Below, piece by piece: positions 1 to 15,400 of a DNA stretch of 64,000 nt (positions are counted from its first letter, which is position 1; every line of letters begins with the position of its first letter). The DNA lies in assembly GCF_005876985.1 (NCBI RefSeq), contig NZ_VAHD01000002.1, forward strand, positions 372,001 to 436,000, read 5' to 3'. The position numbers and the translations under genes are program-made. Below the pieces are notes generated by a model. That model made no database searches, was not told the origin of the DNA, and worked only from the letters and a program-made list of their open reading frames with translations. This DNA is from Rhodoferax bucti (GTDB taxonomy: Bacteria > Pseudomonadota > Gammaproteobacteria > Burkholderiales > Burkholderiaceae_C).

Positions 1-72
1 CATGGAGTCAAGATTGACGTGAAGCAGCTCACTCGCTGTAATCATCGGGCTAGGTATCAGTGTGTTGGACAT
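1..72 (-). CDS. Unknown protein, N-terminal 24 residues only
   Basis: An open frame on the minus strand starts with ATG at 72 and runs off the left edge. A strong Shine-Dalgarno (GGAGGAG, complement of 77-83) sits just in front of the start. The N-terminus begins MSNTLIPSPMITASELL. It follows the DUF3987-type gene after 76 bp in the same direction, so it probably belongs to the same element operon. Too little is visible to assign a family. Confidence 0.45.
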   Translation of the reverse strand, partial: MSNTLIPSPMITASELLHVNLDSM

Positions 73-148: not shown

Positions 149-1642
149 TCAGTAGGACGAGCGGCCACTGTTGCTTTTTCGGGCTGCGGCCAGCTCAATG
201 TGCGGAGCAAGTGCCGGGTCATCCGCAAGGAATTCGAGCATCTCCTGAGCTTCGGTAGCCTTGCCCACGCCACGCACACCAGCGACCAGATCACGCTTGC
301 TCGTCTTCAAGCCGCTGGCGGCACGACGTTCAACGAACGATTTGGCCTTCTTCGAGATGTCGTTGAAGACAGGCATGTCGTATTGGTCCAGCACCTTGCG
401 AAGATCACGCAGGTTCAGTGCAGCCAAACGGGCGGCATACGTCAAGTCTTCGGCGTGCAACACGTTGTCGGTCTTGCCGGTGATGACGTGGTAGATCAAC
501 GCGTATTTGAGGGACCGCCACATGATGCGACGTGAGAAGCTCTCGTCGATGGACTCCGAGCCGCTGCGAGCGACGATCATGTAGAACGCTTCCTCGTAGG
601 CTGCGATGCCCACGTCATCGACGTGATAAACCTTGTGGAACTGCGTGGCGAGGTTCGCGGCCCACTTCTCTTGGATTTGGGGCAACCGTGCCTTGGTGCG
701 ATAGATTGGCTTGATGCGACGCTCATCACGCTCAGCAACCACGAACGCGAACCGCTGGGCGAAGCCGTCCACCAAGGACTCGCTCGAAAGATAGTTCTTG
801 ATCGTCGCAAATGGTGTCGTGCCGAAGATCGTCAGGGCCGGGTCTTCGACGATGACATCCTCTTCCTTCGTGCGGTGTTCGATGTCGTTGTTGTCGTAGG
901 TGCGGAGCAGGAAGTCTTTGACCTGTGCCATGTGGCTCTGTGTCTCCACGGAGCTGAGGTATTGAGCGAACTCATCGCGGAGCCACAACGAATGGTTGTT
1001 GTCTCGCAGGCACTCGACAAACTTGGCCGCTGACGCCGCTTCGGGGAACTGCCGCACGCCCTTGCCGAAAATTTCCTCAATGACGTTCTGCGTGAACGTC
1101 TTGCCTGCACCGGATGGTGCGAGTGCAATGGTCCAGATGTCGGGCCGGGTCGTGCGGCCCTCGACCTCGATCTGCACATCTTGCTGCAACAGCATCGCGG
1201 CAATGTAGTGAATCACCGTGAAAAACGGCAGCTCTCGCGGGATGTCTGTTCCTTCGTAGAACATGCGGTCCACATCGTCCAAGATGCTGCCGGGAGGGAT
1301 GCAGGCATCCAGTGTTGGCCACTTGCCGCCAGCGACCACAGACAGCATGGAACGCACCATCGACCGGGTAGGGTCAATGGCTGCCTGAACAAACTTGCCG
1401 TGAATGCTGGGTTTGGCGAAAGCCCGCCATAGCGTCTCATTAGGGGCGAGGGTGTTCACGATCAGATCGTCAACCTGCTCTTGCGAATAGACATAGGTGG
1501 GCACCGGGGATGCTGCTGCCATCGCCTCTAAGGCTGCACGGCCGTCGCCCGTGGGGGTCTTGATTTCGTAGACCCCAGACACTACCGGCAGGGGTGCCAC
1601 CGCAGGGGTGGACGACTCAATGGGATTCTCTGTTTTCTTCAT
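149..1642 (-). CDS. DUF3987-type P-loop NTPase of an integrated element
   Basis: The 497-aa product has a Walker A motif (APSGAGKT, about residues 175-182) in a context typical of the DUF3987 / phage-plasmid primase-helicase-like proteins. About 45 residues later comes an acidic LWLRDEF stretch that resembles the family's Walker B region. I chose the start at 1642 because GGAGG stands 7 nt upstream (complement of 1648-1652); the frame stays open further upstream but without a Shine-Dalgarno. Relatives are found on plasmids, prophages and islands, often near replication or integration genes. The many GTCAGCA repeats directly upstream suggest a replication or self-regulating role, which is inference. 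An alternative reading is a cargo or defence ATPase. Confidence 0.75.
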   Translation of the reverse strand: MKKTENPIESSTPAVAPLPVVSGVYEIKTPTGDGRAALEAMAAASPVPTYVYSQEQVDDLIVNTLAPNETLWRAFAKPSIHGKFVQAAIDPTRSMVRSMLSVVAGGKWPTLDACIPPGSILDDVDRMFYEGTDIPRELPFFTVIHYIAAMLLQQDVQIEVEGRTTRPDIWTIALAPSGAGKTFTQNVIEEIFGKGVRQFPEAASAAKFVECLRDNNHSLWLRDEFAQYLSSVETQSHMAQVKDFLLRTYDNNDIEHRTKEEDVIVEDPALTIFGTTPFATIKNYLSSESLVDGFAQRFAFVVAERDERRIKPIYRTKARLPQIQEKWAANLATQFHKVYHVDDVGIAAYEEAFYMIVARSGSESIDESFSRRIMWRSLKYALIYHVITGKTDNVLHAEDLTYAARLAALNLRDLRKVLDQYDMPVFNDISKKAKSFVERRAASGLKTSKRDLVAGVRGVGKATEAQEMLEFLADDPALAPHIELAAARKSNSGRSSY

Positions 1643-1666: not shown

Positions 1667-2033
1667 TGCTGACAGTTTACGAAAATCGTCAGCAATAGTC
1701 AATGAGTTTGCTGACTTTATTTCAAAAACGTCAGCAATCAAGGGGTTTCAAGAGTTTAGTTCCTAGGACGGGTAAACGTCAGCATGTCAGCAAACTAAGT
1801 TTTCCTTAATAAAATCAATGACTTACCGTGCTGACAGGCTCGTCAACAGGCGTCAGCAATGTCAGCAGCCACGGCGTCGGAAGTGGTTATGCCCTTGAAC
1901 CGCGACTCGCTGCTGACCGGCGTAGCCCAACGGCGTCAGCATGTCAGCAAATTGCAATTTCCTTAATGAATTCAATGACTTAGAGTGCTGACGGGCTTGT
2001 CAGCAAGCGTCAGCACTGTCAGCACCGTCAGCA
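1667..2033. repeat. Iteron-like cluster: 17 copies of GTCAGCA / TGCTGAC
   Basis: GTCAGCA occurs at 1688, 1730, 1778, 1786, 1852, 1861, 1935, 1943, 1999, 2009, 2018 and 2027. Its complement TGCTGAC occurs at 1667, 1709, 1829, 1911 and 1986. Two larger units, about 1774-1868 and 1931-2025, share the arrangement GTCAGCATGTCAGCAA, an AT-rich CCTTAAT..TCAATGACTTA core, TGCTGAC, then further GTCAGCA copies. This density is far beyond chance. It resembles plasmid iterons or a multi-operator control region and fills most of the non-coding gap in front of the DUF3987-type gene, whose promoter must lie within or beside it. No gene is visible between 1643 and 2183. Confidence 0.8.
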
Positions 2034-2183: not shown

Positions 2184-2201
2184 GTCCCGTCCACTCCGCC
2201 A
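2184..2201 (+). other. Candidate att site: 3' end of a tRNA-Asp gene
   Basis: The bases GTCCCGTCCACTCCGCCA match the last 18 nt expected of a betaproteobacterial tRNA-Asp (T-stem 3' strand, acceptor strand pairing with GGAGTGG, discriminator G, CCA). The E. coli tRNA-Asp ends almost identically. The preceding bases do not form the rest of a tRNA, so this is a fragment. A terminator follows 6 nt later, as expected downstream of the original tRNA. It is probably the attachment-site copy generated by integration. Confidence 0.65.
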
Positions 2202-2207
2202 AATTAC

Positions 2208-4438: not shown

Positions 4439-6013
4439 TTATTTAGCGCTGTGCCAGGCCCGCACTGTGGCGTAGGCCCGCCACGGGCGCCACGTCTGTG
4501 AGCGTGCCTCGGCTGCACGGGCGGGGTGGGGCGCGTCGCGCACACCGAGCACTTGCTGCACCACCACGTCCCCGGCGGGAAAGGCGTCTGGCCAACGCAA
4601 GGCCCGCATGGCAATGTAATGTGCGGTCCACGGGCCGACGCCCGGCAGTGCCAGCAGCCCTTGCAGGGTGGCCTCTACCGGGGCGCCCGGGTGCAAGGCC
4701 AATGTGCCGCTGTCTACGGCGCGTGCCAGTGCAATCAGGGCCTGTTGCCGGGATTTGACAATGCCCATGGCACCCAGCGCGTCCGGCGGGATGCGGGCTA
4801 CAGTGGCAGCATCCGGAAAACATAGCTGCAGTCCGGGCCATGCGGACTCCAGGGGGGCTCCCCAAGGCTCCAGCAGGCGCTGGGTCAGGGTGCGTGCGGC
4901 TTGCACGGTGATTTGCTGACCCAGAATGGCGCGCACGCCCAACTCAAAACCATCCAGGCTGCCGGGAACCCGCACACCGATGGCCTCGGGGAAGTCCGCG
5001 GCCAGCAAAGGCTCCAGGTACGTCGGGTCGGCATCCAAGTCCAACCAAGCGCGCATGCGCGCCAGCACGCCGGGCAGGGCCGGGGCCAGCGCTGCGCTGA
5101 TGTGTAACTCCACCCGGTGGTGTGCCGGTTGCCAGCGGGCTGCTACCACCCCGCGTAAGGTGCTGCCGCGGTGGCGCAGCGCCAGGGTGCGGGCCATGGT
5201 GCCGGCGGCAGGGTCCACCAGTTCCAGCCCGGCAAGTGCCCGCTGCTGAAAAAACCGGAGCAGGCTGTGGTGGTCCAGCGGCGGGCGGTAGGCCGCGTGC
5301 AGGGTGAATCCGCTTTGGGGCTCGCCGGCCGCGTGGGCGGCCTGTACCGCGCTGCCTGCCGCCTGCTTGCGCAAGGCCGTGGGCTGGAGCCGGTAATGCG
5401 CCAGAAACGCGGTGTGAAAACGACGCTGGCTGGCATAGCCACTGAGCTGGGCAATCTCGGCAACCGGGAGCGTGGTGTCGGTGAGCAATTGCTTGGCATG
5501 CAGCAGGCGGCGGGTTTGCAGGTATTGCAAGGGCGAGACGCCCCAGTGCGCATCAAAAATACGGCGCAAATGCCGATCGCTGATGCCCATGCGCTGCGCC
5601 ACGCCGGCCGCGCTGATGGGCTCGTCGCTCCAGGCGGCGGCCGTGTCCATCAACTCGGCGGCTTGCAGCGCCAGCAGGCTGCTGGCGTCTTGGGTGGTCC
5701 AGGCGTGGGGGCTGTGCCAGCGGTTGGCACCCGGAGCCAGCTCGGGTCGGCAACGCAGGCAGGGCCGGAAGCCGGCCGCCTCGGCCTGCGCCGCGCGGTC
5801 GAAAAACCGGCAGTTCTCCGGCTTGGGTGTGCGGACCCGGCAGACGGGGCGGCAATAGATGCCGGTGCTGGTCACGCCGGTGAAAAACCGGCCGTCAAAC
5901 CGCGCATCCCGCGCCTTCAGAGCAAGGTAGCGGCCGGCATCGTCCACCGCCAGGGAGTCGTGTGGACCGGTGGCAGGCGCTGGGGCGGGCGGGTGCGTGG
6001 CGTGGCGGGGCAT
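4439..6013 (-). CDS. Ada/AlkA fusion: Zn-Ada, AraC HTH, AlkA glycosylase
   Basis: The 524-aa product combines three parts. Residues about 25-95 form an Ada metal-binding domain with all four cysteines (YCRPVC and PCLRC), which in Ada accepts methyl groups from phosphotriesters. Residues about 115-200 form an AraC-type helix-turn-helix. The rest is an AlkA N-domain followed by an HhH-GPD 3-methyladenine glycosylase, with the LPGVGPWTAHYIAMRAL hairpin and the catalytic aspartate in AGDVVVQQ. It should both sense alkylation and excise alkylated bases. The methyltransferase domain missing here is encoded by the downstream ogt. It is divergent from the phosphomannomutase gene across 116 bp. Confidence 0.92.
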   Translation of the reverse strand: MPRHATHPPAPAPATGPHDSLAVDDAGRYLALKARDARFDGRFFTGVTSTGIYCRPVCRVRTPKPENCRFFDRAAQAEAAGFRPCLRCRPELAPGANRWHSPHAWTTQDASSLLALQAAELMDTAAAWSDEPISAAGVAQRMGISDRHLRRIFDAHWGVSPLQYLQTRRLLHAKQLLTDTTLPVAEIAQLSGYASQRRFHTAFLAHYRLQPTALRKQAAGSAVQAAHAAGEPQSGFTLHAAYRPPLDHHSLLRFFQQRALAGLELVDPAAGTMARTLALRHRGSTLRGVVAARWQPAHHRVELHISAALAPALPGVLARMRAWLDLDADPTYLEPLLAADFPEAIGVRVPGSLDGFELGVRAILGQQITVQAARTLTQRLLEPWGAPLESAWPGLQLCFPDAATVARIPPDALGAMGIVKSRQQALIALARAVDSGTLALHPGAPVEATLQGLLALPGVGPWTAHYIAMRALRWPDAFPAGDVVVQQVLGVRDAPHPARAAEARSQTWRPWRAYATVRAWHSAK

Positions 6014-6129
6014 GGGACGGATGATACGCAGCGCCTGCGCCCGGAGTAGCCGTTTCCGGACATGTGGCTGCCGCCTACAATCCTGCCCACCCGCCCTCTG
6101 GCGGAACCGGCCCTTACCCGCTCAGCTGC

Positions 6130-7539
6130 ATGCACCTGTCCCCCCGAATTTTCAAAGCCTACGACATCCGCGGCACCGTGCCCTCCACGTTGACGCCGGC
6201 GGTGGCGCACCTGCTGGGCCGTGCATTTGCGGCGCTGGTGCACGAGCAGGGCGGTGAGGCCGTGGCCGTGGGCCGCGATGGGCGACTGAGCAGCCCCGCC
6301 TTGGCAGAGGCACTCATGCAAGGCTTGTCGGTGGCGGGTGTGCAGGTGATTGACATCGGCCAAACCACCACGCCCCAGCTGTACTTTGCGACCCATACCC
6401 TGTGCCCGCACGGTATCCAGGTCACGGGCAGTCACAACCCCAAAGACGACAACGGCTTCAAGATGGTGCTGCACCGCCAGGCTTTGTATGGCGATGCGGT
6501 GCAGGACTTGCGCTTGCGCATGGAGGCGCTGCTGGCGCGACCGGACGATGCGGTGTCTGCGGATGAGGCATGGCCGGCACAGCCGGTGCAGCGCGTCGAT
6601 GTGCTGCCCGCCTACCGCGAGCGCATAGTCCAAGACATTCAACTGGCCCGCTCCATGAAGGTGGTGGTGGACAGCGGCAATGGCGTGGCCGGTGCCAGCG
6701 CACCGGCGGTGCTGCGCGCCGTAGGCTGCGAGGTGCAAGAGCTGCACAGCGCGGTGGACGGGCATTTCCCTCATCATCACCCCGACCCCAGTCGCCCTGA
6801 AAACTTGGCTGACCTGGTGCGCGCCCTGCGTGAGGGCGATGCCGAACTGGGCCTGGCCTGGGACGGCGATGGCGACCGCGTGGCCCTCGTCACCCGCGAT
6901 GGCCGCACCATCCATACCGACCGGCAACTCATGCTGCTGGCGCCCGATGTGCTAACGCGCCACCCCGGTGCAGCCGTGGTGTTCGATGCCAAATGCAGCC
7001 AAGGCTTGGCGCCCGTGATTGAGGCTGCCGGTGGCGTGCCGGTGATGGACCGCACCGGTCACTCCCTGATCAAAGCCAAGATGCGCGCCTTGAATTCGCC
7101 CCTGGGCGGCGAAATCAGTGGTCATGTGTTTTTTGGCGACCGCTGGTTCGGTTTTGACGATGGCACGTATGCCGCCTGCCGCCTGCTGGAAGTGCTGAGC
7201 CGCAGTGCGGACGCCAACGCCGTGCTGCACGCGCTGCCCGACAGCTACATCACCCCCGAGCTGCACATTGCCTGCCAGGAGGGCGAGGCGCATGCGCTGG
7301 TGGCGCAGTTGCTGGCGAATTTGACCTTGGATGCGGATGCCCGCCCCAACACCGTGGACGGTCTGCGCGTGGACTGGCCCGATGGCTTCGGCCTGCTGCG
7401 CGCCTCCAACACCACACCGGTGCTGGTAATGCGCTGCGAGGGGCGCACGCCCGAAGCGCTGGCCCGCATTCAGGCCCTGCTGATGGGATGGGTGCGACGC
7501 ATCCAGCCCGACGCCGCACTCATGGAGGCGGCCCATTGA
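6130..7539 (+). CDS. Phosphomannomutase / phosphoglucomutase
   Basis: This 469-aa alpha-D-phosphohexomutase has the phosphoserine loop VTGSHNPKDDNG (Ser about 101), the magnesium loop DGDGDR and the sugar-specificity motif GEISGH in order. The family (AlgC/ManB/Pgm) interconverts hexose 1- and 6-phosphates for LPS, exopolysaccharide or glycogen synthesis. I start it at ATG 6130 (MHLSPRIFKAYDIRG); upstream residues of the longer frame are not family-like. It heads an operon with waaC and waaA, with a stop/start overlap to waaC. This points to a role in supplying sugar phosphates for LPS. Confidence 0.93.
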   Translation: MHLSPRIFKAYDIRGTVPSTLTPAVAHLLGRAFAALVHEQGGEAVAVGRDGRLSSPALAEALMQGLSVAGVQVIDIGQTTTPQLYFATHTLCPHGIQVTGSHNPKDDNGFKMVLHRQALYGDAVQDLRLRMEALLARPDDAVSADEAWPAQPVQRVDVLPAYRERIVQDIQLARSMKVVVDSGNGVAGASAPAVLRAVGCEVQELHSAVDGHFPHHHPDPSRPENLADLVRALREGDAELGLAWDGDGDRVALVTRDGRTIHTDRQLMLLAPDVLTRHPGAAVVFDAKCSQGLAPVIEAAGGVPVMDRTGHSLIKAKMRALNSPLGGEISGHVFFGDRWFGFDDGTYAACRLLEVLSRSADANAVLHALPDSYITPELHIACQEGEAHALVAQLLANLTLDADARPNTVDGLRVDWPDGFGLLRASNTTPVLVMRCEGRTPEALARIQALLMGWVRRIQPDAALMEAAH

Positions 7540-9972: not shown

Positions 9973-11307
9973 TCAGGGCACCAGCTGGTTGTTGATGGGT
10001 GCCAGGTCTTCTGCCTTGAGCGTGCCGGCCGCTTGCTTGAGCTTCAAGCCGCCCACCAGCACGTCGTAGCGCGCCTTGGCCAGGCTGGCTTTGGTGCTGT
10101 AGAGCTGGCTCTGGCTGTTGAGCACATCGATGTTGATGCGCACACCCACCTGGTAGCCCAGTTTGTTGGCGTCCAGCGCGCTTTGGCTGGAGGCTTCGGC
10201 GGCTTCAAAAGCCTTCACCTGCGCCTGCCCGCTTTGCACGCCGAAGAAGGCGGTGCGGGTGCCTTGGGCGATGGTGCGGCGGCTGGCTTCCAGATCGGTG
10301 CGGGCCTTGTCTTCCAGCGCCAGGGTTTCCTTGATGCGGTTCTGGGTGGCAAAGCCGGCAAACAGGGGCAGGTTGAAGCTCACGCCCACGGTGGCCACAT
10401 TCACCCTGCTGTCGCCGATGGCGGTGGAGGTACCGTTGTTGTTTACCGCAGAGTAGCTACCCGTCAAGTCCAGCGTGGGCTTGTGGCCGGCTTCGGCCTT
10501 GGCGGTTTCGAGCTTGGCCACGTCCAGCGCAACCTTGAGTTGGGCCAGGCCGGGGTGCTGGGCTTCTGACTGTTGCACCCATGCTTCGGGGTCGGCGGGC
10601 TCAATGGGTGCCAGCACCACCGGTGCTGCCAGCGGTTTGGGGCTTGCATTGCTCACGCCCACCAGTTGGGTCAGCGCGAGGGTTTTGACGCGCAGGTCGT
10701 TTTCAGCGGCCAGCTCTTGGGCGACCACCAGGTCAAAACGCGCCTGGGCTTCGCGGGTGTCGGTGATGGTGGAGGTGCCGACCTCGAAGTTGCGTTTGGC
10801 GGAGGCCAGTTGCTCGGCCACAGCGGCTTTTTGCGCCTTTACGAAGGTGAGGCTGTCCGAGGAGGCCAGCACATCGAAGTAGGCCTGGCTGACGCGCACG
10901 ATCAGGTCTTGCTCAGCCACTTGCAACTGGGCTTTCGCGGCTTCAACGCTCTTCATGCCTTGTTCATAGCTCGCTGCGTTGACCGGGCGGTACAGCGGTT
11001 GCGATGCGCTGATGGTGGCGGTCTGGGCGCCATAGCTGCGGTCCGGGTTGGGCAGGATCTCCTGGTTGGAGCGGCTGGCCCCCAGCGCAAAGTTGGCGGT
11101 GGGCAGCAACAAGGCCTTGGCTTGCTCGGCCTTGGCCAGGTTGGCATCAAACAGGCTCTTGGCCGACTGGTAGCTCGCATCAAACCCGCGGGCGGCGGTG
11201 TACAGGTCTTGCAGGCTTTGGGCGCCCGCATGGGGGGCCACCAGGGCGCCGGCCAGGGCCAGTGCCAGGGGCAACAAGGGCAGTCGTAAAGAGGTAGTGC
11301 GGTGCAT
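9973..11307 (-). CDS. tolC: TolC-family outer-membrane efflux channel
   Basis: The 444-aa product has a signal peptide (cleavage near GAQS, residue about 30) and the repeated long coiled-coil helices of TolC-like proteins. Two OEP repeats each contain a RxxFxxG-like element (SAKRNFEVGTSTITDTREAQ). It would form the trimeric exit duct for a tripartite pump. The RND adaptor and pump lie upstream in the same direction beyond pcm and the rhodanese gene. The ATG at 11307 is preferred because it opens a classic signal peptide; the longer frame does not. Confidence 0.92.
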   Translation of the reverse strand: MHRTTSLRLPLLPLALALAGALVAPHAGAQSLQDLYTAARGFDASYQSAKSLFDANLAKAEQAKALLLPTANFALGASRSNQEILPNPDRSYGAQTATISASQPLYRPVNAASYEQGMKSVEAAKAQLQVAEQDLIVRVSQAYFDVLASSDSLTFVKAQKAAVAEQLASAKRNFEVGTSTITDTREAQARFDLVVAQELAAENDLRVKTLALTQLVGVSNASPKPLAAPVVLAPIEPADPEAWVQQSEAQHPGLAQLKVALDVAKLETAKAEAGHKPTLDLTGSYSAVNNNGTSTAIGDSRVNVATVGVSFNLPLFAGFATQNRIKETLALEDKARTDLEASRRTIAQGTRTAFFGVQSGQAQVKAFEAAEASSQSALDANKLGYQVGVRINIDVLNSQSQLYSTKASLAKARYDVLVGGLKLKQAAGTLKAEDLAPINNQLVP

Positions 11308-11372
11308 GGAGTGCTTTCTCAGTCGAAATGTCAATAAAACAAAGGGGGTGTTGCGTGCGTTTGCCGTGGGCC

Positions 11373-11714
11373 TCAATAGCGGGCGATTGCAGGGTCTCTG
11401 TCCAGGGACCAGGCATCGATACCGCGGGCGATGTTGGCCAGGTCTTCAAAGCCCCGGCTCTGCAAAAACAGTGCGACCTGCATGCTGCGCGCACCGTGGT
11501 GGCACAGGCAGGCGATGGGCCGGTCGGCAGGCAATTCGTGGATACGCACCGGAATCACCCCCATGGGAATGCTGAGCACCTCCAATCCGTCCGGCGCCAC
11601 GCTGGCCAAGGCCAGTTCGTGGGGCTCGCGCACATCCAGCACCAGAGGCTGGCCATGGCCTTCCACGCTGGCGTACCAGGCTTCTAGGTCGGTGGGACGG
11701 ATTTGACTGATCAT
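11373..11714 (-). CDS. Single-domain rhodanese-like protein
   Basis: The 113-aa product is one rhodanese domain with the active-site loop CHHGARS (Cys about 71, CxxGxR form). This supports persulfide or sulfur transfer, though the sulfur acceptor is unknown. LDVREPHELAL is the usual N-terminal signature. It starts 19 bp after pcm and ends 65 bp before tolC. The pcm-rhodanese-tolC order is one I recall from other Burkholderiales. Confidence 0.9.
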   Translation of the reverse strand: MISQIRPTDLEAWYASVEGHGQPLVLDVREPHELALASVAPDGLEVLSIPMGVIPVRIHELPADRPIACLCHHGARSMQVALFLQSRGFEDLANIARGIDAWSLDRDPAIARY

Positions 11715-11733
11715 GCCAATTGCACAGGGAGGT

Positions 11734-12387
11734 TTAAAACTGGAAACGCTCAGGCTCTGCAAAGCCCTGCAGGCGCTGCACCACGGTTTCCCAGGTGGCG
11801 CTGGTGCGGAAATCGGTAGCGCTGGTGCGGGTGACGATGGTGCATTGCATGACCGGGTCATCTCCCACGATGGCCGCCAGACGGCCGCCCACATTCAGGC
11901 GCTGCAGCAGGTCTTGCGGAATCTGGCCCACAGAGCCGCTGAGCAGGATCACGTCGAAGTTGCCTTCTGCGGCGGCCAGCTTGGAGCCATCGGCTTCGCG
12001 CACGGTGACGTTGGTCAGGCCGGCTTGTGCGAGGTTGCTGCGGGCAAAAGCGGCGAGTTCGGGCACGATTTCCAGGGTCAGCACCTGGCGGGCACGGTGG
12101 GCTAGCAGGGCGGCCATGAAGCCGGAGCCGGCACCGATTTCCAGCACGGTCTCGTGGGACTGCACTGCCACGTCTTGCAGCAGGCGGGCTTCCAGGCGGG
12201 GGGCGAGCATGCACTGGCCGGCGGGCAGGGGGATTTCGAGGTCGGCAAACGCCAGAGCCTTGTGGGCGGCGGGCACAAACTCCTCGCGGTGCACGTTGTC
12301 CAGCAATTCCAGGACTTGGAGGTCGAGCACATTCCACGGGCGGATTTGTTGCTCGATCATGTTGAAACGGGCTTGATTCGGATGCAT
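11734..12387 (-). CDS. pcm: Protein-L-isoaspartate O-methyltransferase
   Basis: The 217-aa SAM-dependent enzyme repairs isoaspartyl residues in damaged proteins. Motif I (VLEIGAGSGFMAALL) and the N-terminal NMIEQQIRPWNVLD region are typical. The start at 12387 has AAGGAA about 9 nt upstream; the longer frame to 12426 is less likely. It sits between the RND pump gene and the rhodanese/tolC genes on the same strand, 42 bp after the pump stop, so it may share the pump transcript. Confidence 0.9.
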   Translation of the reverse strand: MHPNQARFNMIEQQIRPWNVLDLQVLELLDNVHREEFVPAAHKALAFADLEIPLPAGQCMLAPRLEARLLQDVAVQSHETVLEIGAGSGFMAALLAHRARQVLTLEIVPELAAFARSNLAQAGLTNVTVREADGSKLAAAEGNFDVILLSGSVGQIPQDLLQRLNVGGRLAAIVGDDPVMQCTIVTRTSATDFRTSATWETVVQRLQGFAEPERFQF

Positions 12388-12429: not shown

Positions 12430-15400
12430 TTACCGGCCGGTGGCGGCTGAGCCGGCCCACAAGCGCTTGGCCCAGGCGGCCAGATCATCCATATAGCAAT
12501 ACACCACGGGCACCACCACCAGGGTGAGCAGGGAGGAGGTGATGACGCCGCCAATCACCGCCTGGCCCATGGGGGCACGCATTTCGGAGCCTTCGGTCAA
12601 GGCAAAGGCCAGTGGCACCATGCCGAAGATCATGGCCAGCGTGGTCATGAGGATGGGGCGCAGGCGCACTTTGGCGGCCAGCAGCAAGGCTTCGGAGCGC
12701 CCTATGCCGGGGATGGTGCGGCCGTTCGCGTCCGTCTGGTCCTCCCGCGCGCGGATGGCAAAGTCCACCAGGAGGATGGCGTTTTTGGTGACCAAGCCCA
12801 TCAGCATCACTACCCCGATGATGGAGAACATGGAGAGCGTGGAGTTGAACATCATCAGCGCCAGCACCACACCGATCAGCGTGAGCGGCAAGGCGGTCAT
12901 AAGTGCCAGCGGTTGCAAAAAGCTCTTGAACTGGCTGGCCAGAATCATGTAGATAAACACAATGGCCAGCACCAGCGCCGAGATGGCGTAGCCAAAGGCT
13001 TCAGCCATGTCTTTGGTGGAGCCGCTGAATTTATAGCTGTAGCCCGGCGGCAGGCTGATGCTGTCCATCGCGGTCTTGATGTCGGCCGACACCTCGCCCG
13101 TCGAGCGGCCGGACACGTTGCCGCTGATGGAGACCTCGCGCGTGAGGTCGCGGCGGTTGATCTGATTGGGGCCGGTGGATTCGCGCACGTCGGCGACCTG
13201 GTTCAGGCGCACGATGCGGGCACTACCGTCCGCGTTGCTGCCCACGGTGAAGGGCAGGCGCTGCAGGTCGACGGCGGCGTTGCGGGCATCGGGCGCCAGG
13301 CGTACGTTGACGTCGTAGGTTTGATCATCCGGCGCGCGCCAGTTGCCCACGGTTTTGCCGGCAATCAAGGTGCGCAGGGCGCTGCCGATTTGCGCCACAT
13401 TCAGACCGAGGTCAGAGGCCGCATCCCGCCGCACCTGCACGTCCAGCGTGGGTTTATTGGGTTTCATGCTGGAGTCCAGATCGACCAGGCCGGGAACATC
13501 GCGCACCTTCTCCAGGGCCAACACGGTCAAGCGCTCCAGCTCATGCGTGTCCGGCCCCTGGATGGAAAACAGAATCTGCTTTTGCCCGCCCACCGCGTCT
13601 AGAAGGCCTACGTGGGTCACCGTGATGCCCGCCACATTGCGCAAGCGCTGGCGCAGCTTGACCGACATCTGGTCCACGCTCAGGCTGCGGTCTTTGCGGT
13701 CTACCAGGCGGATGTAGATGTTGGCGTAAATTTTTCCCTGCGCATTGCCCGTGTTGATGGTGGTCAACGTGTAACGCACCTCGGGGAACTCACGGATGAT
13801 GGCCTCCACCTGCCGGGCGCGGGCCTCGGTCACTTCGAGCGAGGAGCTGACTGGCGTGTTGAAGGTGAGCGAGGTTTCCGAGAAGTCGGACTTGGGCACG
13901 AACTCGGTGCCCAGAAGCGGCACCATCAAGATGCTGCCCACAAAAATGCCCACCGCAATCAGCACCGTGGCCAGCTTGTGCACCAGCGCCCAGCGCAGGA
14001 TGCTTTGGTAGCCCTCGGCCAGGGCCTCGGTACCGCGGTCAAACAGGCCGGTGACGCGGCCTATGGTCTTGTCGTACCAGTCCACCGGGGCGTGATGTTT
14101 GCCATGGCTTTCAATGCTGGGGTCGTGCCAGACGCTGGAGAGCATGGGGTCCAGCGTGAAGCTCACAAACATCGAGATCAGCACTGCCGCCACGATGGTG
14201 ATACCGAACTCGTGGAAGAACTTGCCGATGATGCCGCCCATGAAGCCGATGGGCAGGAACACGGCCACGATGGAGAGGGTGGTGGCCAGCACGGCCAGGC
14301 CGATTTCCTGCGTTCCGTCCAACGAGGCATTGAAGGCGTTTTTGCCCATCTGCACGTGGCGCACGATGTTTTCGCGGACCACGATGGCGTCGTCAATCAA
14401 CAGGCCCACGCACAGCGACAGGGCCATCAGCGTGATCATGTTGATGGTGAAGCCGAAGGCATTCATGAACAAAAAGGTGCCGATCAGCGCAATCGGCAAT
14501 GTGAGGCCGGTGATCACGGTGGACCGCCACGAGTTCAGGAACAGGAACACGATGAGCACGGTCAGCACCGCACCTTCAATCAGCGTACGCCGCACGTTGT
14601 CCACGGATACGCGGATCTGGCGGGAGCCGTCGGTAATCTGCTCCAGCCGCACGCCGGGTGGTAGTTGCTTTTGCATCTCTGCCAGCGTTTTGATCAGGCC
14701 GTCCACCACCATGATGGTGTTTTCGTCCTGCGACTTTTGCACATTCATCAGCAGGGTGCGCTGGCCATTGTAGAGGGCCAGGGTTTCGGCTTCCTGGGCG
14801 CCGTCCGCCACGCGGGCGACCTGGTCCAGGCGCACCGGCGTGCCGTTTTTGCGGGCCACGATGATGCTGCCGAAGTCCTCGGGCCGCAGCATGCGGGCTT
14901 GTACCTGAATCACGCGCTCCTGCTCGTTTGAGTGGATGGTGCCCAGGGGCAGGTCCTGGTTTTCGTTGGTGACCGCGGTGACCACTTGGTCGGGCGTGAT
15001 GCCGAAAGATTCCAGCGCCTGCGGATTCAGGTAGAGGTTAATTTCCCGCTTGGTGCCCCCCACCAAGGTGACTGAGCCCACGCCGCGCACGTTTTCCAAG
15101 CGCTTTTTGAAGTTTTGCTCGGCCCAGTTGGTTAGCTCCACGGCGGTGAGTGCTTTCGCTCCGTTGGCGTTATCCGGCAGCACGGCCACTGACCACACGG
15201 CGCGCGAGGACGGGTCAAAGCGCAGCACGCGGGGTTCTTTCACCTCGGTACGTAAGTTGGGTTTGACGGCCGCCACCTTTTCGCGCACATCATCGGCCGC
15301 CTTGCGGCCATCGATGTGCAGGCCAAACTCGATCACCACCACGCTCTGGCCTTCGTAGCTGCGTGAGGTCAGGGCATTGATACCGGCAATCGAGTTGACG

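Follow-up and report, generated by a model that had tools for sequence, protein, structure and literature searches.

With a probability of about 0.8, the repeat array at positions 1667-2033 of the analysed DNA combines the replication origin of a 6.7-kb integrative mobilizable element with an operator that overlaps it, and the adjacent DUF3987 gene would encode the iteron-binding initiator helicase of this element. The window, i.e. the whole stretch of 64 kb that was analysed (G000:C2:372001-436000), contains the right end of this element in its first 2.2 kb, while the left end is located outside the window. The strongest evidence for an origin is provided by 26 small plasmids, in which a DUF3987-type protein with upstream iterons is the only recognised replication candidate.

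Seventeen exact copies of GTCAGCA/TGCTGAC were found at 1667-2033, 12 on the plus strand and five on the minus strand, confirming the 12 direct and five inverted copies in about 370 bp that an earlier note on this DNA had counted. One further copy, at 1842, has a single mismatch. In the 64-kb window as a whole, the 7-mer was observed 38 times, compared with 12.5 expected. A chance cluster was rejected, since 1000 shuffles of 1640-2080 that preserved dinucleotides gave two copies at most, against the 17 observed. A simple tandem repeat was also rejected, because the orientation within the array is mixed and the spacing unequal.

The array includes a 91-nt direct repeat (1777-1867 and 1934-2024, 85% identical, start-to-start spacing 157 bp). 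The two units of about 95 bp with an AT-rich core that were described earlier are thus present in this form, but five of the copies lie outside them, namely four at 1667-1736 and a single iteron between the units (1911-1917, minus strand). Proposed origin unit 1 (1778-1867, plus strand) has iterons at 1778+, 1786+, 1829-, 1842+ (the copy with one mismatch), 1852+ and 1861+, and proposed origin unit 2 (1935-2033, plus strand) has iterons at 1935+, 1943+, 1986-, 1999+, 2009+, 2018+ and 2027+. Both units have the same geometry, 0+, 8+, 51-, 64+, 74+, 83+ (spacing 8-43-13-10-9); the 64+ site of the first unit is the one with the mismatch, and the second unit carries an extra iteron at 92+. The inner segment of each unit is 36 bp long and has 28% G+C, compared with 62.7% for the window. 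It holds an AT-rich core, at 1804-1826 in unit 1 (plus strand, CCTTAATAAAATCAATGACTTAC), which is the proposed unwinding region, and at 1961-1983 in unit 2 (plus strand). As in iteron-type replicons, multiple short repeats lie beside the gene of the candidate initiator, and an AT-rich region adjoins the iterons. The strict DnaA box TTWTNCACA, the sole form searched, was absent from 1640-2210. DnaA boxes are common in iteron-type replicons, but not universal.

The four copies at 1667-1736 form an operator-like block with alternating strands and a spacing of 21/21/21 bp (1667-, 1688+, 1709- and 1730+). They overlap a promoter-like site (TTGACT-17-TAAACT, 1674-1702, minus strand) that faces the DUF3987 gene; one such site was found against a mean of 0.5 in shuffles, which is weak taken alone. 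These promoter-proximal copies are probably an autoregulatory operator of the DUF3987 gene.

The element is bounded by two 20-bp exact copies of the 3' end of a tRNA-Asp gene (L004 7386-7462). The copy forming attR is located at window 2184-2203 (plus strand), and attL starts 6,739 bp away at L004 7445 (G000:C2:367445). From attL to attR the element encodes a tyrosine integrase (PF00589, 30.4 bits; cut-off 27.1), a small ORF, a TauE/SafE exporter, an HTH protein, a MobV-type relaxase, a MobC-like ORF and the DUF3987 protein, followed by the array, which therefore lies between the DUF3987 gene and the right end. The relaxase (L004 10480-11700) matched Mob_Pre (PF01076) with an E-value of 4.6e-18 and 66.2 bits (cut-off 25.5), and NCBIfam MobV with 88.6 bits, under the cut-off of 100 for that family. 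The MobC-like ORF (L004 11743-12072, minus strand; its start is at window 1-72 and the rest extends beyond the window) matched no family and was named from its position only. When the right flank was searched against 10 other genomes of the same genus, four matched, two of them (G1034 and G217) from the att position on, and in these two the same five-tRNA cluster runs directly into the right flank, i.e. the site is empty. An integrase, att repeats, an empty site and a relaxase of its own are the features of an integrative mobilizable element. No secretion-type genes were found among the six other element ORFs scanned in Pfam, the short ORFs being outside that scan. The cargo includes the TauE/SafE-type exporter (L004 9169-9915), and the adjoining HTH_1-like protein, of LysR type, scored just below the Pfam cut-off.

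The DUF3987 gene (149-1642, minus strand) lies downstream of the array, points away from it, and encodes a protein of 497 aa. The presence of a DUF3987-type gene beside the array, as noted earlier, was borne out by a PF13148 match of 55.8 bits (gathering cut-off 27, E 5.6e-15). Residues 148-437 matched phrog_3022, 'DNA primase', with an E-value of 5.7e-18, the alignment covering positions 389-704 of that family. The PHROG families matched by this protein are mostly named primases, and no primase domain was reported by Pfam. A P-loop (APSGAGKT) and a Walker-B-like motif (LWLRDE) were read by eye. A sequence search of the PDB with a sequence profile (A1) gave no convincing relative. The full-length model had a mean pLDDT of 39.7, and the fold search was therefore restricted to the C-terminal domain. 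Modelled alone, the C-terminal 82 residues gave a mean pLDDT of 74.6 and a pTM of 0.60 with three helices, and weak winged-helix folds were among the matches listed (best Foldseek E 0.88, best Z 6.8), so that this domain is predicted to be winged-helix-like.

A tblastn search of 72,556 plasmids with the DUF3987 protein yielded 26 records at E 1e-5 and 27 at 0.01. The 27 records comprised 25 enterobacterial plasmids, a Roseivivax plasmid and a weak primase/polymerase match in Spartinivicinus. The enterobacterial plasmids are 3.5-4.3 kb in size, with identities of 24.5-28.5% over 55-71% of the query. One further small plasmid was obtained with a plasmid query, giving a set of 26 plasmids that encode only 15 distinct DUF3987-type proteins; overall, these are 24-29% identical to the window protein over the aligned part. 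PF13148 matched two of them just above the cut-off of 27 bits (L008, 29.7; L018, 27.2), and the last P-loop glycine, before the lysine, is alanine in 11 of the 15 distinct proteins. Domain scans with Pfam and NCBIfam covered the L008 genes as well as single genes of L009 and L018; for the other plasmids, gene content was taken from incomplete PLSDB gene lists. Besides the DUF3987-type protein, the annotation of L008 comprises a small ORF, MobC and a relaxase of the MbeA-like type, which scored 104 bits in NCBIfam, under the cut-off. The PLSDB typing lines available for the 26 plasmids give no replicon type and 'non-mobilizable', although most list a MobC or relaxase gene. ColE1-type replication was rejected, as no match to RNAI/RNAII was found in the 11 plasmids scanned; the lone Rfam line (sraL, E 0.09) was below the gathering score.

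In each of the 26 plasmids, the DUF3987-type gene is preceded within 450 bp by 4-9 exact copies of a single TGTCAnA type, and clusters as dense occurred in 0/200 shuffles for each plasmid. The core motif CCTT..A[AT]CA[AG] is present in 24 of the 26, compared with 4.9% of shuffles on average, and L009 has a variant core. The arrangement of iterons and core differs between the plasmids and the element. A blastn search of the plasmids with the array region (1660-2210), which is close to the check proposed in the earlier note, found no match, and the link between element and plasmids is consequently visible only via protein, motif and geometry. Two plasmids had unusual arrangements. L015 (CP043769.1, 3,497 bp), although deposited as complete, is missing the three left iterons and the core, and a deletion seems to have fused what remains of the origin, its right half, with the relaxase region. 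In L010 (NZ_CP055322.1), the GTCAGA array is accompanied by four GTCATA copies farther upstream, which looks like a combination of two origins.

A core profile was built from seven distinct plasmid 21-mers chosen by eye, with L009 and the first unit of L018 omitted; 0-2 spacer bases were permitted after the window cores had been seen, so this choice was not blind. In the 64 kb, both strands included, this plasmid-only profile ranked window 1804 first (29.3) and 1961 second (14.1), with the next site at 9.7. In 300 shuffles of 1640-2040, none reached the observed best, and none reached the observed second-best with its own second-best; some shuffles scored up to 18.7, higher than the 14.1 of core 2, but none had two such sites.

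One close relative, with a DUF3987 protein 81% identical to that of the window, was found in a metagenome-assembled genome (L005) by a genome-contig scan that reaches close relatives only. Upstream of its DUF3987 gene there are 11 iterons, consisting of a four-site block (22/21/22 bp), placed as in the window, and one unit. This unit has the exact spacing of the window units, mirrored like its gene, together with a 36-bp inner segment and a core-like sequence; the site at L005 7834 was the top core-profile site in its 17.5 kb, narrowly (13.1 vs 11.9). All three element units, two in the window and one in L005, therefore share the geometry 0+/8+/51-/64+/74+/83+, and in each the inner segment is exactly 36 bp long. 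Judged by eye, the L005 gene is followed by a MobC-like ORF and a piece of the same relaxase. The array is thus kept beside the L005 gene and beside 26/26 plasmid DUF3987-type genes, which at the level of sequence supports the initiator-plus-iteron replicon suggested earlier. In L005, two closely similar integrase-like ORFs (5533-6984 and 10224-11903) flank the DUF3987 region. The second continues into relaxase sequence in another frame, which suggests a composite or rearranged element, near a tRNA-His gene (11980-12055).

The plasmid iterons vary at one base, being GTCAGA, GTCATA or GTCAAA. Among the 15 distinct proteins, position 433 (L018 numbering) is Ser in all G-type and Asn in all T-type proteins, and the A-type protein has Asn433 in a changed context (YNIRK). 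Six gap-free columns separate the G from the T types, and among them only 433 is invariant within both types. Iteron types were assigned to the plasmids by hand, and the tie in L010 (four GTCAGA, four GTCATA) was set to G by layout. The G/T switch occurs between proteins about 70% identical and again between L018 and L019 (94.5% identical, 26 differences); it happened independently perhaps twice, and the covariation is thus based on few events. By our own reading, residue 433 is where the turn of the helix-turn-helix would be. This covariation suggests, without proving it, that the C-terminal domain reads the iteron.

A protein-blind pattern, GTCAGCA-N-GTCAGCA-N30-42-TGCTGAC, which fixes three iterons and a loose gap, was found in 399 genomes of the order only in the element's own genome (0/398 others), and in a viral collection of about 2.9 million contigs only in one contig, L050. 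This is a 6.1-kb phage fragment with a terminase, a Dda-like helicase, RusA and a toprim primase. It has 13 GTCAGCA copies compared with 0.94 expected, 12 of them in two inverted units with the geometries 0/8/51-/64/75/84 and 0/8/51-/65/75/86, the outer sites being within 1-3 bp of the element geometry. Random placement of the L050 sites gave the full geometry even once in 3/20000 trials. The inner segments are exactly 36 bp long and G+C-rich (61 and 64%), and the 56 bp between the units have 38% G+C. On one side the units adjoin the primase gene at its 3' end, and on the other they lie 25 bp upstream of the Dda-like helicase gene. Residues 509-611 of the L050 primase match positions 646-768 of phrog_3022, of which the window protein covers 389-704; no BLAST similarity between the two proteins was found, nor was a P-loop detected by motif in the L050 protein. 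Either by transfer between mobile elements or by retention, the iteron platform seems to extend beyond recognisable protein similarity. Searches of phages with the L050 array, and of phage records with the DUF3987 protein, gave no match. Of two protein searches of viral contigs, one found none and the other a single weak match, L037, without an array. Likewise, no array was found at the phage loci L051, L052 and L037, taken as relatives of the L050 primase or of profile A1, and there were no clustered 7-mers in the primase loci L051 and L052.

From these data we infer binding, unwinding, replication, repression and excision in the following scheme. The element would be excised from tRNA-Asp by its integrase. 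Using its C-terminal winged helix, the DUF3987 protein would bind to the GTCAGCA iterons and assemble on the repeated 8-43-13-10-9 platform. It may then unwind the AT-rich core that the iterons enclose and load itself as a helicase, the remainder being carried out by host primase and polymerase. At the four sites spaced 21 bp apart over the promoter, the same protein would repress its own gene.

An alternative is that the whole array is a multi-site operator autoregulating the DUF3987 gene, with any replication starting elsewhere. The alternation of the four proximal copies at 21 bp and their overlap with the promoter-like site agree with this, and in many of the plasmids one iteron is located 83-95 bp from the DUF3987-type gene. 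However, there are 17 sites over 367 bp and two repeated units, each with an AT-rich core that recurs in free plasmids whose proteins are 24-29% identical, and an operator has no need of an enclosed core. The L050 units could also be the operator of the Dda-like helicase gene that starts 25 bp from them, which slightly reduced our confidence in an origin, but they adjoin the 3' end of the primase gene as well, where an origin of the SaPI type would be. The operator proposed as an alternative in the earlier note is hence probable for the four promoter-proximal copies and, given two core-enclosing units, unlikely for the array as a whole.

Small mobilizable plasmids often use a rolling-circle or RNA-primed mode of replication. 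If the 26 plasmids replicated by rolling circle via the relaxase, the only other large plasmid gene, or by an unrecognised RNA-primed system, their arrays would be uninformative on replication. This is improbable, considering the lack of an RNAI/RNAII match in the 11 plasmids scanned and the presence of a DUF3987-type gene with an array in 26/26; moreover, according to a review, canonical relaxases play no part in the maintenance of the extrachromosomal form (PMC5704250). An array serving as oriT, or as a binding region for relaxase or integrase, appears more improbable still. It would fit a position inside a mobilizable element and adjoining attR, and repeats can also occur among accessory recombination sites, but the array is not beside the relaxase or integrase genes. 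In addition, in L008 an array of this kind accompanies an MbeA-like relaxase, and no integrase was annotated in the 26 plasmids, indicating that the array goes with the DUF3987 gene.

SaPIs are packaged by phage. In the element, Pfam scans of seven ORFs, two of which had no match at all, revealed no phage packaging or interference gene. SaPI Rep and SCCmec Cch2 are described as island helicases whose C-terminal domain binds iterons at their own origin, and they are thought to load themselves as initiators (PMC7581432). The present system resembles them by analogy in its element-borne helicase-type protein, C-terminal winged helix and iterons around an AT core. The SaPI Rep/Cch2 helicases are, however, of the DUF927 or D5/Primase_Cterm type, with the origin downstream of the gene (PMC7581432), whereas here a DUF3987 protein has the proposed origin upstream, on an element with a relaxase and no recognised packaging gene. 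SaPI/PICI membership was rejected on the latter ground and on the position of the array upstream, not downstream, of rep. The DUF3987 protein most likely works in the manner of SaPI Rep, from another helicase family and in another type of element.

SGI1 is likewise an integrated mobilizable element, with an iteron origin reported to make it a transient plasmid (PMC7826253), but its origin is described as having an IncN2/N3-type RepA, four 16-bp repeats and putative DnaA boxes (PMC7826253), as opposed to the helicase-type protein and the 7-bp iterons here, beside which no strict DnaA box was found. PICMI are reported as 6.1-kb phage satellites with an integrase and a 'primase' (model: DUF3987 and DUF5906), the loss of which lowers circular copies (PMC10803314). 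They differ in having AlpA, a site beside fis and a dependence on helper phage (PMC10803314), and the main text of that paper does not contain the word iteron. PICMI membership was rejected, since the element is at tRNA-Asp and no AlpA match was found in the element ORFs scanned. In the PrimQH/All3500 primases, DUF3987 was predicted to be a helicase of mobile-element replication (Kazlauskas 2018, PMC5862659); there it is fused to a primase domain, while the protein studied here lacks one and has a C-terminal winged helix and a matched candidate origin. A full-text search, with subscription papers and preprints outside its scope, found no literature containing both 'DUF3987' and 'iteron'.

A wider proposal, to which we give slightly less than even odds, is that one replicon class, common to integrated elements and free enterobacterial plasmids and linked to phages by exchange of origin platforms, relies on primase-less DUF3987 helicases as its only initiators, with the turn of the winged helix reading one iteron base (Ser for G, Asn for T), which would give the class an evolvable incompatibility code. 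For the maintenance of excised mobilizable elements, a 2017 review used the words 'an unexplored world' (PMC5704250), since when SGI1 has been worked out (PMC7826253). The element offers a concrete, clonable candidate replicon of another kind than SGI1. A likely function may be assigned to DUF3987 proteins without a primase domain, and the 26 plasmids without a PLSDB replicon type gain a candidate replication module. With the iteron variants that occur naturally, the specificity between initiator and origin could be tested directly.

DUF3987 genes of this type are rare. Homologues were present, own genome included, in 2/299 genomes of the family, 1/369 of the class, 1/398 of the phylum and 2/100 of the genus, and the class and phylum searches with protein or profile found the own genome only (of 369, 398 and 398). 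Weaker relatives, with identity given over the aligned part only, are G238 (48%), G1039 (41%) and the Roseivivax plasmid L011 (28.7%). Conservation of the array beside DUF3987 homologues thus holds at L005 and, with a changed iteron base, in the 26 small plasmids, but does not extend to all of these relatives. No array was seen at L011, where the second-ranked core-like site, 413 bp upstream of the gene, scored 9.4, which is background level (9.7 in the window). The GTCAG arrays at L023 (G238:C23) are of a different kind and lie 1.1 and 2.2 kb from the DUF3987 gene. Eighteen GTCAG copies at exact 9-bp spacing are located 2.2 kb upstream of the gene (12471-12624), and four more at 11350-11377; no AT core was found at these arrays, which could be another form of origin or a coding-type repeat. 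At L047 (G1039:C163) no GTCAG array was seen, the contig ending about 290 bp upstream of the gene. The whole contig, of 4,124 bp and from the same genus, encodes the DUF3987 protein and, by eye, a MobC-like ORF and a MobV-like relaxase; no integrase was seen and the contig ends do not overlap. It may be the same module in the form of a free plasmid.
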